From BD2-11 clade cluster bacterium bin43 (GTDB lineage: Bacteria; Gemmatimonadota; Gemmatimonadetes; Longimicrobiales; Gaopeijiaceae), in the NCBI GenBank assembly GCA_002238605.1, contig MPMR01000001.1, forward strand, positions 248,001 through 312,000: DNA of 64,000 nucleotides, given 5' to 3'. Of the stretch, positions 42,193 through 50,221 are shown piece by piece (position 1 is the stretch's first letter; every line of letters starts with the position of its first letter). The position numbers were made by a program, and so were the translations under genes. The notes beneath the pieces are model-generated. The model saw only the letters and a program-made list of their open reading frames with translations, was not told the DNA's origin and made no database searches.

Positions 42193-42567
42193 ATGAGCCA
42201 GCCAGCCACCGCCACCATGCCGACCCCCGACCGACGCACCGCCAGAGCCCTGAGTCATCTGAAGACGATCCGGGCCGGTGTGCGCTCCGACCGATCGATC
42301 GCGGCTGTCCTCGGGGTCTCGCATTCCCAGGTGTCACGCTGGAAACGGGGCCAGCGTCCCGACCGGGACAACGCCGACCGCCTCGCCGCGCTGGCCCTGG
42401 TGGTCGAGATGCTGCTCCGGTGGCTGGACGCGGACATCATCGAGGAGTGGCTCACCGGGGCGAACGCCCACCTCGACGGGGCTACCCCGTCGTACTTCAT
42501 CCAGCGAAGCCGACTCGCCGAGGTCGTCGGAGCGGTGGAAGCGATGAAGACCGGTGTCTTCGCCTGA
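42193..42567 (+). CDS. Xre-type antitoxin (module 2)
   Basis: A 124-residue HTH antitoxin. The DNA-binding helix-turn-helix is DRSIAAVLGVSHSQVSRWKRG (about 34-54); the C-terminal part (LDADIIEEWLTGANAHLDG...) is the MbcA/ParS-like toxin-binding region. It starts 5 nt after a TACAAT box. The RES toxin gene begins inside its last codons (14-nt overlap). Confidence 0.82.
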   Translation: MSQPATATMPTPDRRTARALSHLKTIRAGVRSDRSIAAVLGVSHSQVSRWKRGQRPDRDNADRLAALALVVEMLLRWLDADIIEEWLTGANAHLDGATPSYFIQRSRLAEVVGAVEAMKTGVFA

Positions 42568-43129
42568 GCGGTCGTTCTGGCGCGTCTTTCCCTGGGATCC
42601 GGACGTAAACGAGGGAAACCTGTTCTCGCCGTCCCATATCCCGCCGACCGCGGGTCGGGGGCGCTTCGATCTACCAGTGGCCTGTTCTCCCGTGCTCTAC
42701 GTGGCGGAATCACCGGAACACGCGATTGCGGAGGCCATTCAGCCATGGCGTAACCGGCCCCTGCGCCAACCTCACCTGGTTCGGGCCGGACGTCCCCTGG
42801 CGCTGGTCGGGGTGCAATTGGCGGCCGAGACGGCGTCGGAACTGGCCGACCTCTGTCAGCCGGACGTGCTCGGCCGACTTGGGTTGAGCGCGGACCGGGT
42901 GGCCTCACGTCATCGGCGGCGGACCCAGGCGATCGCGGCGTCGGTGTGGGACAGTGGCCACGCCGGCCTGCGATGGTGGTCCAGCTTCTGGGGGGACTGG
43001 CACGGGATCGTTCTCTTCACGGCCCGAATGAAGGGGAGCGTGCACTTCGGGAGCCCAGAGGTGCTGTCGGCGGAGAACCCGGCGCTTAAGGAAGCGGCCG
43101 GCGCGCTCGGTATGCCGGTGGCGATCTGA
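42554..43129 (+). CDS. RES-domain toxin (module 2)
   Basis: A 191-residue RES-family protein. SFWRVFPWDPDVNEGNLFSP, then PVLYVAESPEHAIAEAIQPW supply the conserved Arg, Tyr and Glu positions; WWSSFWGDWHGIVLF is typical of the C-terminal half. GTG 42554 overlaps the antitoxin gene by 14 nt, so translation is coupled. It is a different subgroup from the toxin at 30107 (longer, little shared sequence). Confidence 0.83.
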   Translation: MSSPERSFWRVFPWDPDVNEGNLFSPSHIPPTAGRGRFDLPVACSPVLYVAESPEHAIAEAIQPWRNRPLRQPHLVRAGRPLALVGVQLAAETASELADLCQPDVLGRLGLSADRVASRHRRRTQAIAASVWDSGHAGLRWWSSFWGDWHGIVLFTARMKGSVHFGSPEVLSAENPALKEAAGALGMPVAI

Positions 43130-46776: not shown

Positions 46777-49365
46777 TCAGACCGTATGGCGGGCCCTGAT
46801 CGCCCTTGCCCGGCACCGAGCCTTCGCCTCCTCGATCACATCGTGCCAGGTCTCGAGGGCCGGATCGCTGGCCAGTGAATCCAGAGCCCGGCCGGCGCCG
46901 GGATCAGCGCGTTCGGCGAGGATCACCAGCCAGCGCTTGATGATGCCGTCCGTCCGGAGGCTGAACGTCGAAGAGCGGAGCCTGGACCTGTGGCCGCTGA
47001 GGCCGCCCCACCAAGGGTCGTACCAGGACCCCAGCGCCCTGACCAGTGCCGCGATATCCGCCGTATCCCATTCGACCCAGGGCTCCGGGATGGCGGGCGC
47101 CTTGAGCCACCCGGGCACGAGAAACCTGAGAATGTGGCGCGCCCTCGACTCCTGTCCCTTCTCGACAAAGCTCACGGCCGCCGACGTGAACTGTCGGGCC
47201 GAGGCAATCAATCCGGCGCCCAGCCAAACCGCGCGCTGAGCCACGTCCATGCCCCGGGCGGCCACCCTGCGACGAAGCCGGTCCGCGAACTCCTCTCGCG
47301 GCACATGCACCAGCGCGGCCCACAGCAGCGCGTGCAGAGCCGACACCTGGGTTCGCGAACACCGCGTGGGGAAGACGCCGAGCAGCGGAGGCACGCCCCG
47401 CCGGGCCACCTCTGTATAGACGGAGTCGCCGGCCAGCGCGAAGAGATGGTTGTTATGGTCCTTGCGGCGGCGGATGAGCGACCTGTGCACGGTCGCCAGC
47501 GCCTCCGCGCAGGGCTCTGGATGCGCCCGGACGGCCCGCCGATACCACGGCGGCTCCTCCACGTAGGGCGTCATGTAGTAGCAGCCAACGGCTCGGGCGA
47601 CCGCGTCCGCATCGAGGCCGTCCAGCGCATCCCCGCCGAGCCGCCCGATTTCGCCCATCGCGGCCAGGATCTGGTACGCGAAGCGCGGCACCGCGTCGGT
47701 GAAGGGCGGCGCCTTCGCATGCTCTTCCTCGAGCCGGACGATCTCGTCCAGGGAAGGGAGATCGTCCCTCCGCACGAGGCGGGGAAGACCGGCGAGCACC
47801 GACGTCAGGAGACCATCGTCATCGCCCAGCCGAATGCGCAGACGCTCGATCGGGTCGCCCTGGTAGTGCTCCGGCATCGCGCCCATGTACGCGCGCCCCA
47901 TCATATGCCAGAGCCATGGCGACCCCCGGCCCCGGACCATCGCGTCCTCGTGCTCGCGGACGCCCGCCATGAGCCTGATTCGTTCGTCGCGCAGGATGGG
48001 GTCCTCGGCTTCTTCCAGCCCGGGCACAATCGGGTCTCCATACCCCGGGAACGATCCCGAGGGTGCTCCGTATCCCGGAGATGGCTCGCGGACCGAACGG
48101 CTCTCTCCCGTTCCATCGGTCGCTGAGGGCACCGGGTTGTCGGCCCAGTAGCGCGCCGGGTGGGAGAGAAACTTTTGCAGCGGCACCCCACGCTCCCCCA
48201 CCACGAGCATGCGGGCGCCAGGGAACCGCTTCTCGAACTGCGCCAGCCCGCGGAGACGCCCCAGTCGCGGTCCGCTCTTGACTTCGATGCCGAGGAGGTT
48301 GGGGCCTCGGGAGAGCACGAAGTCGACTTCATGCGCCCCCTCGCGCCAGCTGGACAACTCGACGGCGTGCCCGGCCGTGTTGTGGAGGTGCGCGCCCACT
48401 CCGCTCTCGACAAGCCGCCCCCAGAAGGTGCGGTCGGCGCGTGCCTCCTCGAAGGTGTAGGTGAGCGGCGCCGTCATCAGCGCAGTATTGAGAACGTTCA
48501 GCTTCGGGCTCGAAGCCCTGCCCAGGTATGGCTTGGTGGAGTACCTGGGCAGACCGGTGACCAGGCCGCCGTCCGACAGCAGATCGAGGTAGGTCGCCAG
48601 CGTGGTCGTGTTCCCGGCCTCCTGCAGCTGGCCCAGCATCTTGTTGTACGAAAGCATCTGGCCGGAATACCGGGCGGCCAGTTCCATCAGGCGGCGCATG
48701 AGCGGCGGCTTGTCCACCCGGGTCAGGGCGACGATGTCCCGTTCGATGCTCGGCGTGATGATCGTCTCGAGAACTGCCTCTCGCCAGACTTCCAGGTTGC
48801 CGGCCACGGATGCCGTGCCGGGGTAGCCGCCGAAGAACAGGTACTCGTCGACACTGAAACCAAACGCCGCCGACATCTCGGAAAAAGACCAGTGGCGGGA
48901 ACGGACAGGCATGAAGCGGCCCGCGAGACTCTCGTGCAGGCCGGTCAGCATGGACCAGGGTGCGGATCCCGACACGATCACGCGAAGAGGGCATCCGGTA
49001 CGCCGATCCCGGTCCCACTGCGTCTTTACAATCGTCGACCAGCCCTTGACGTACTGGATTTCGTCAAGGGCAAGGACAAGGCCCCGCGCGCTTTGGTCGG
49101 CGTCTCGGCGAGCCTCCTTCCAGGTGTCCAGGAGCCATGCGGTCCGCAACGAGTCGCCCTCTTCGTTCGTCTGGTATGCATGTTCCGCGAGGCTCTCATC
49201 GACCGGGTAGTAGCGGCTCGGGATATCCACGCGCCGGAGCGCCTGCCGGATCATCGTGGTCTTGCCCGTTTGACGTGGTCCCGTAAGCGCAACGATCCGT
49301 GGAGGATAGGGTCCGGTCAGGAAGTGGACGAGTTGGTCCAGCTGGGGACGTTGGAAAAAGTGCAT
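46777..49365 (-). CDS. AAA ATPase-DUF4143 protein fused to a large helical C-terminal domain
   Basis: An 862-residue protein, more than twice the usual 380-450 for DUF4143 ATPases. Residues 1-210 are the ATPase: Walker A GPRQTGKT (29-36), Walker B ALDEIQ (99-104), sensor VSGSAPW. Residues about 215-400 are DUF4143 with PD-(D/E)xK-type motifs HEVDFV (345-350) and IEVKSG (360-365). A linker (about 405-450) with repeated PGYG leads to an all-helical part (450-862). That part (for example HLFALAGDSVYTEVAR, LLWAALVHV, MDVAQRAVWLGAGL) recalls the C-terminal repeat region of large bacterial NACHT/STAND-type NTPases; this is from memory, not a search. It has its own leaderless promoter. Confidence 0.75.
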   Translation of the reverse strand: MHFFQRPQLDQLVHFLTGPYPPRIVALTGPRQTGKTTMIRQALRRVDIPSRYYPVDESLAEHAYQTNEEGDSLRTAWLLDTWKEARRDADQSARGLVLALDEIQYVKGWSTIVKTQWDRDRRTGCPLRVIVSGSAPWSMLTGLHESLAGRFMPVRSRHWSFSEMSAAFGFSVDEYLFFGGYPGTASVAGNLEVWREAVLETIITPSIERDIVALTRVDKPPLMRRLMELAARYSGQMLSYNKMLGQLQEAGNTTTLATYLDLLSDGGLVTGLPRYSTKPYLGRASSPKLNVLNTALMTAPLTYTFEEARADRTFWGRLVESGVGAHLHNTAGHAVELSSWREGAHEVDFVLSRGPNLLGIEVKSGPRLGRLRGLAQFEKRFPGARMLVVGERGVPLQKFLSHPARYWADNPVPSATDGTGESRSVREPSPGYGAPSGSFPGYGDPIVPGLEEAEDPILRDERIRLMAGVREHEDAMVRGRGSPWLWHMMGRAYMGAMPEHYQGDPIERLRIRLGDDDGLLTSVLAGLPRLVRRDDLPSLDEIVRLEEEHAKAPPFTDAVPRFAYQILAAMGEIGRLGGDALDGLDADAVARAVGCYYMTPYVEEPPWYRRAVRAHPEPCAEALATVHRSLIRRRKDHNNHLFALAGDSVYTEVARRGVPPLLGVFPTRCSRTQVSALHALLWAALVHVPREEFADRLRRRVAARGMDVAQRAVWLGAGLIASARQFTSAAVSFVEKGQESRARHILRFLVPGWLKAPAIPEPWVEWDTADIAALVRALGSWYDPWWGGLSGHRSRLRSSTFSLRTDGIIKRWLVILAERADPGAGRALDSLASDPALETWHDVIEEAKARCRARAIRARHTV

Positions 49366-49370
49366 GGTGT

Positions 49371-49408
49371 AGTGTAAGCACTCGCGTAACTATTCTCAAT
49401 GGCTTACA
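49371..49408 (-). promoter_or_regulatory. leaderless promoter with inverted repeat for the DUF4143 chimera
   Basis: Minus strand TTGAGA (49399-49394), 17-bp spacer, TACACT (49376-49371), then ATG at 49365 after 5 nt. Inverted repeat TGTAAGC (49373-49379) / GCTTACA (49402-49408) covers the core promoter, a likely repressor site. Confidence 0.55.
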
Positions 49409-49487: not shown

Positions 49488-49530
49488 TTGATTAGTCTTT
49501 ATCCCAGGGCTAGAATAGTCATTATGACTA
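49488..49530 (+). promoter_or_regulatory. promoter and operator of the Phd/VapC pair
   Basis: TTGATT (49488-49493), 17-bp spacer, TAGAAT (49511-49516). The inverted repeat TAGTCAT-T-ATGACTA (49516-49530) spans the start codon at 49524, so the transcript would be leaderless and its promoter autorepressed. A GACT/AGTC half-site pair surrounds the -35. Confidence 0.6.
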
Positions 49531-49802
49531 CGGTGTCGATATCGGAGCTGAAGGCGAACCTGTCGCGCTACGTTCGCAAGGTCCGGCGGGGCGGGGAGGT
49601 GCAGGTGCTCGACCGGGGCAGGCCGGTGGCCAGGCTCGTCCCGGCAACCGCGGATGGGGAAGAAGCGCGCGAGCGTCTGATCACGCAGGGAGTGGTGCGT
49701 CCCGGGCGGGGCGGAGCTGCCGCCATTCTCGACGAGCCGCCGCTGACCTTGCCCGTAAGCATTTCGGACGCGCTCGCCGAGGACCGGGACGACCGGTTGT
49801 GA
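49524..49802 (+). CDS. Phd/YefM-type antitoxin
   Basis: A 92-residue antitoxin. The N-terminus TTVSISELKANLSRYVRKVR and VQVLDRGRPVARLVP are the typical Phd/YefM DNA-binding fold. The acidic C-terminus (SDALAEDRDDRL) is the usual flexible toxin-binding tail. It overlaps the PIN toxin's GTG by 4 nt. Confidence 0.88.
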   Translation: MTTVSISELKANLSRYVRKVRRGGEVQVLDRGRPVARLVPATADGEEARERLITQGVVRPGRGGAAAILDEPPLTLPVSISDALAEDRDDRL

Positions 49803-50221
49803 GGTACTGGGACGCTTCCGCGCTGGTCCCGCTGGTGGTCACCGAGCGCGACAGCAACTGGGCGCGGAAGAGACTGGCCGAGGATGACCGGATCGTCACC
49901 TGGGCCTGGACGCGCACGGAAATCGTGAGCGCCATCGAGCGGCGGGCCCGCGAGGGGTCGTTGTCGCGCCTACAACGACGAAGGGTGCGTGACCGCCTGG
50001 ACAAATTCGCCGGTCACTGGGACGAGGTGACGGATGTGCTCGCGGTCCGGTCGCGAGCGCATGCGCTATTGGCCCGTCACCCCCTGCGCCCCGCCGATGC
50101 CGGTCAACTCGGGGCCGCCCTGCTCGTGCAGGAGCAACTGGCCCAGCCGCTGACCTTCGTTTGCCTGGACCAGCGGTTGTCGCTGGCGGCTGAGCGGGAG
50201 AGCTTGCGGGTTCTTCCGTAG
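49799..50221 (+). CDS. VapC-family PIN-domain toxin
   Basis: A 140-residue PIN nuclease. The first acidic residue is in RYWDASALVPLVV, later ones in TEIVSAIER, PADAGQLGAALL and FVCLDQRL. The start is GTG 49799 within the antitoxin stop (GTGA). Family members cleave RNA, often tRNA. It forms a standard type II pair with the gene before it. Confidence 0.88.
   Translation: MRYWDASALVPLVVTERDSNWARKRLAEDDRIVTWAWTRTEIVSAIERRAREGSLSRLQRRRVRDRLDKFAGHWDEVTDVLAVRSRAHALLARHPLRPADAGQLGAALLVQEQLAQPLTFVCLDQRLSLAAERESLRVLP

Follow-up and report, generated by a model that had tools for sequence, protein, structure and literature searches.

A DUF4143 ATPase joined to an EruA-type helical domain in Gemmatimonadota: a putative compact relative of a two-gene NACHT defence operon

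In the window, by which we mean the whole stretch of 64,000 nucleotides analysed here, a single gene joins an ATPase-nuclease-like protein of the PDC-S01 type to the helical domain of the NACHT antiphage protein EruA. By sequence comparison, the product is a PDC-S01 protein with an EruA helical domain and would be classed neither as EruA nor as a NACHT protein; it combines two kinds already known in a new arrangement. The reading that we somewhat favour is that of a compact protein related to an NLR-like defence operon of two genes but without the NACHT domain; it would have a helical sensor, an ATPase-nuclease effector and a repressor acting at its promoter.

Architecture of the fusion gene

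The open reading frame, checked in the window, starts with ATG and has no internal stop. Its parts, in window coordinates, are as follows.

46777..49365, minus strand: whole fusion gene, 862 aa, stop codon included in the coordinates
48874..49299, minus strand: AAA_14 ATPase domain, aa 23-164 (Pfam PF13173, 66 bits), containing Walker A GPRQTGKT (aa 29-36) and Walker B LALDE (aa 98-102)
48271..48744, minus strand: DUF4143 domain, aa 208-365 (Pfam PF13635, 82 bits)
48001..48135, minus strand: Pro/Gly-rich linker, aa 411-455, with pLDDT below 50 at 413-452 and variable among orthologues
46780..48000, minus strand: all-helical domain, aa 456-862, defined from the NF058535 match, AlphaFold2 and an alignment with 40 EruA-like proteins

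The initial annotation had described a complete ATPase-nuclease-like half with intact motifs, and this description agrees with the AAA_14 and DUF4143 matches and with the invariance of the key residues. The DUF4143 domain carries the PD-(D/E)XK-like nuclease signature D348...E361-x-K363, and the key residues of Walker A, Walker B and D...ExK are identical in 34/34 aligned rows (9/9 fusions and 25/25 stand-alone relatives). We regard nuclease activity of the DUF4143 domain as putative on the strength of this signature. The N half matches the PADLOC model of PDC-S01 (PDLC04791) over positions 2-393 of 395, with 463 bits and an E-value of 2e-139. The linker sequence EPSPGYGAPSGSFPGYGDP is present in the fusion as previously described.

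Residues 463-856 match positions 746-1122 of the 1318 positions of NCBIfam NF058535 (NACHT antiphage protein EruA) with 87 bits (E=8e-25), far under the 1000-bit cut-off of that model. The NACHT (STAND) NTPase domain is absent from the fusion: the Pfam cut-offs were passed by AAA_14 and DUF4143 only, NACHT queries gave no BLAST match to the fusions, and positions ~1-745 of the EruA model are uncovered. The C-terminal PD-(D/E)XK-like domain of EruA (1122-1318) is absent as well, and all orthologous fusions end before it. The C half had been said to resemble the C-terminal repeats of large bacterial NACHT/STAND NTPases. The likeness holds for the match to EruA 746-1122 and is accompanied by full-length NACHT genes in the same genomes, but the fusion itself has no NACHT domain and so is no NACHT/STAND NTPase.

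AlphaFold2 modelled residues 456-861 as all-helical and mostly with high confidence, with a disordered linker and low confidence for the stretch between the ATPase and the nuclease-like domain. The best solved-structure match of the whole fusion model was PDB 2qen (E 2e-4, TM 0.52 over the target), the Walker-type ATPase PABY2304 of Pyrococcus abyssi, which differs from the fusion in having no helical extension and is 14% identical to it. The helical and nuclease-like part of EruA was modelled at a mean pLDDT of 88; a fold search of the PDB with this part returned no significant match, with weak hits to alpha-solenoid proteins and to CRISPR-associated nucleases. A sequence search of the PDB gave no convincing relative, and the helical fold is without a close solved match there.

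Recurrence of the fusion and its derivation from gene pairs

A search of the order with the C half alone recovered the same fusion in other species of the same genus (78-87% identity of the C half) and in a sister genus (48-51%). Intact copies form one frame of 861-890 aa and, judged by the isolate names, their Gemmatimonadota carriers appear to be sponge-associated. Within the genus, simple Nei-Gojobori estimates of dN/dS were 0.14-0.26 for the N half and 0.22-0.29 for the C half, which corresponds to purifying selection on both. The linker evolves more loosely than the two halves, its own dN/dS estimate being noisy. These values rule out a pseudogene for most copies, although those of G030 and G031 are broken.

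These data also decide whether an error of sequencing or assembly near 48050 had merged two adjacent genes, an outcome that the initial annotation had named as refuting. The parts of the fusion do exist as separate genes in relatives. However, independent assemblies of other species share the fusion in one frame, down to the identity seen in the sister genus, and the join is flanked on either side by losses of EruA sequence, which a frame error cannot produce. Since the fusion recurs across genomes of two genera, in one and the same chromosomal position and under purifying selection, a join error is refuted by the orthologous fusions and we give it a negligible probability.

Longer EruA-like proteins (~1400 aa) are also encoded in these bacteria. 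They cover the EruA model end to end and score about 700-927 bits (701-914 for the three tested), and none of 395 genomes of the phylum reaches the curated 1000-bit cut-off. Their NACHT part is followed by the helical domain also present in the fusion and by a C-terminal domain in which D...(V/I)E-x-K is conserved. A DUF4143 gene lies directly upstream on the same strand in 47/47 EruA-like loci for which upstream sequence was available. In the order, the distance between its stop codon and the aligned NACHT start ranges from -18 to +90 nt over the 44 loci measured, and the DUF4143 gene is also upstream of the EruA-like gene in another family of the class (3/3). The DUF4143 proteins of the pairs are ~50-60% identical to the N half of the fusion. 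The genome of the window contains two full operons of this kind (L034, G000:C57:29000-41000; L035, G000:C39:50000-62000), which hold its sole other close DUF4143 relatives.

The fusions form a single clade both in the DUF4143 tree and in the helical-domain tree (support 100/99 and 100/100). Both fusion clades fall inside one superclade of pairs, and the major clades of the pair trees correspond. The two halves thus derive from a single lineage of pairs and, with DUF4143 constantly paired to EruA-like genes in these bacteria, the fusion is a collapsed two-gene operon. Most simply, a single event joined gene A, the DUF4143 gene, to the helical part of gene B, the EruA-like gene, with loss of the NACHT and the terminal nuclease-like domains. 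The architecture first proposed for this gene, DUF4143 joined to a NACHT-type C-terminus, is retained with three amendments, the absence of a NACHT domain, the absence of the terminal nuclease-like domain of EruA and the origin from a two-gene operon. That the genes are neighbours in relatives and fused here suggests that the two proteins cooperate.

It is precisely the NACHT and nuclease-like parts that were lost, and the genome of the window has two full pairs. Both observations would suit a regulator or decoy of EruA-type systems, which keeps the domain binding the cue and the partner ATPase, lacks the switch and the effector, and dampens or tunes full-length EruA in a dominant-negative or immunity-like way. 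Yet fusions persist in G004, G005, G007 and G012, where the helical-domain search found the fusion sequence alone (G005 and G012 were fusion-only in the EruA model search too), and the active-site residues of DUF4143, unneeded in a decoy, are fully conserved. We consider such a role improbable.

A DUF4143 partner is not a property of all EruA proteins. Unlike the full-length relatives described here, the three inspected homologues on proteobacterial plasmids (Bradyrhizobium, Pantoea and Vibrio) are without it, as are three distant homologues of the same class. Distant EruA/HyoA-like NACHT proteins of 1432-1571 aa from another family of the class (L176-L178) have no DUF4143 neighbour. Nor is the DUF4143 subfamily tied only to EruA, lone copies being found in G015, G063, Thermus, Collinsella and Bacteroides.

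Chromosomal site, promoter and operator-like elements

In both genera the neighbours of the fusion are a sortilin-like gene on one side and methyltransferase/DinB genes on the other. G003 and several genomes of the second genus have nothing at this site, and in G001 it is occupied by a different AAA_14/DUF4143-like ATPase of 386 aa (L108 2627-3787). Among genomes lacking the fusion, the site is empty or contains a different DUF4143-like ATPase, leucine-rich-repeat proteins or other genes. Given one syntenic site, empty sites and broken copies, the fusion was inherited vertically and lost repeatedly.

The single syntenic site and the vertical inheritance with losses count against the defence reading, the fusion being less mobile than most defence genes. 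Vertical inheritance at one site across two genera, together with purifying selection, could also be expected of a domesticated protein that was taken from a defence operon into cellular use, perhaps as an autoregulated ATPase of DNA maintenance or stress control, and is no longer anti-phage. Such a protein fits poorly with the patchy distribution and repeated loss, as seen in the empty sites and in the two broken copies, and with the fusion not being essential; we find it unlikely.

The gene had been placed among toxin-antitoxin loci, and two such pairs are indeed present in the window. A VapBC-like pair at 49523-50221, between the fusion and the sortilin-like gene, consists of a PIN domain protein and an upstream ORF of 92 aa that has no Pfam match and is Phd-like by eye. 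A RES-Xre pair (HTH and RES domain) with overlapping frames lies at 42193-43129 and is found in the same place in G004 (L036). However, the two nearest relatives have no VapBC pair at the site, and their fusion gene is just 174-243 bp away from the sortilin-like gene. Because this pair is missing there and the contents of the site vary among genomes, no conserved island exists at the site, and the linkage to a defence island that was to be checked is rejected.

Upstream of the start codon we found two elements.

49371..49399, minus strand: sigma-70-like promoter, second hexamer ~6 nt before the ATG, near-leaderless
49373..49408, no strand assigned: inverted repeat TGTAAGC...GCTTACA, overlapping the promoter, candidate operator

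The promoter scan found 3 sites in the 1-kb region compared to 0.2 expected. An inverted repeat TGTAA...TTACA overlaps the promoter in 9/9 orthologues, compared to 0.02 expected from mononucleotide shuffles, and in several orthologues changes in its arms preserve pairing. This repeat over the promoter supports the earlier impression of an autoregulated promoter.

At the corresponding place, 28/43 pair operons carry TTGAG(N)...(N)CTCA (0.07 expected). The element TTGAGTA-N4-TACTCAA is a subfamily-specific, operator-like element of pair promoters and is unlike the fusion's own repeat in sequence. Allowing at most one mismatch, TTGAGTA-N4-TACTCA occurs at a single site in the genome of the window, at a DUF4143/EruA pair promoter, and nearly all sites in seven further genomes are pair promoters; two more sites in G021, and a single one in G022, did not lead to a DUF4143 gene. 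Perfect copies were seen at G021:C62:14112 and G021:C136:17695, neither of them a DUF4143 promoter; one is just beyond an EruA-like gene and the other near a peptidase-like ORF.

Lone DUF4143 genes of the subfamily likewise have upstream elements of the TTGAGT/ACTCAA type, in a small sample that covers Thermus, Bacteroides, viral contigs and an unlinked Gemmatimonadota copy. At the lone genes they take the form of half-sites or repeats, with three copies at exact 22-nt steps in Bacteroides (L107) and in a viral contig (L185). Examples of DUF4143 upstream regions with TTGAGTA/TACTCAA elements, paired or lone, are L035, L046, L082, L106, L107 and L185. In Collinsella and G063 the element appears as repeats of TACTCA/TGAGTA and was missed by the stricter counting pattern. 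Upstream of 12 control DUF4143 genes from other subfamilies there was no element of this type. The operator-like element thus appears to travel across phyla with DUF4143 and not with EruA, which points to putative autoregulation by the DUF4143 protein.

Proposed mechanism and relation to known systems

The scheme that we propose builds on the architecture, origin, active-site conservation, selection, linkage and operator-like element established above. The two-gene system would comprise gene A, for an AAA_14/DUF4143 ATPase of the PDC-S01 type that includes a PD-(D/E)XK-like domain, followed by gene B, for an EruA-like protein with NACHT, helical and nuclease-like parts. The helical part would be the invader sensor, or the adaptor of one, and would bind a cue derived from the phage or from infection. 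With the cue bound, it would act on the DUF4143 ATPase, whose nucleotide-driven assembly would activate the putative nuclease-like domain, and the cutting of DNA would then stop phage spread or kill the cell. In two-gene systems protein A would also dock on the helical part of protein B, because the two are joined in the fusion. Expression would be kept low by repression at the inverted repeat, and the DUF4143 protein is the likeliest candidate repressor. Two observations speak against DNA binding by DUF4143, the low model confidence of the region between ATPase and nuclease-like domain and the different operator sequences of fusion and pairs. Both the sensor function of the helical domain and an anti-phage role of the fusion are presumed, the former by analogy.

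The analogy is to bNACHT proteins, in which sensing falls to the C-terminus and switching to the NACHT module, and some of which act via PD-(D/E)XK DNases (PMC12169576). The fusion resembles bNACHT/STAND proteins such as bNACHT25 (PMC12169576) in a helical C-terminal part expected to sense and in a nuclease-type effector. It differs in that its switch is not NACHT and its ATPase-nuclease is AAA_14/DUF4143 and N-terminal. With EruA it shares the helical region and lacks both the NACHT and the C-terminal nuclease-like domain. A search of the literature library for EruA as a NACHT protein found nothing; the 'EruA' of E. coli (PMC12839154) is an unrelated regulator of the SlyA family.

PDC-S01, described as an ATPase fused to PD-(D/E)XK, is reported to rank fourth in frequency among prokaryotic defence systems, with experimental validation still pending for most candidates of this sort (PMC12988326). 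It is a single-gene candidate of ~400 aa, and we came across no phage assay of either PDC-S01 or the gene pair. The N half of the fusion matches the whole model with all catalytic residues intact; the fusion adds a helical, sensor-like domain of ~400 aa, and close relatives of its N half share an operon with a NACHT protein. For PDC-S01, the fusion and the 47 pairs offer a concrete partner, a domain that may act as sensor, catalytic residues and a candidate operator. A broader and more tentative idea, which we hold to be possible at best, is that PDC-S01 is the ATPase/nuclease partner of NLR-like sensors. In these bacteria it would form a two-protein complex with the EruA-type NACHT protein via the helical domain, the fusion would dispense with the NACHT switch, and DUF4143 would repress itself through TTGAGTA repeats in several phyla. 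The arrangement suggests that an NLR-type sensor may transfer from a NACHT switch to a different ATPase/nuclease. As a lead only, we mention that an AAA_14/DUF4143 gene of Thermus thermophilus is 6.6-fold up when plasmid and Argonaute are both present (PMC4406477).
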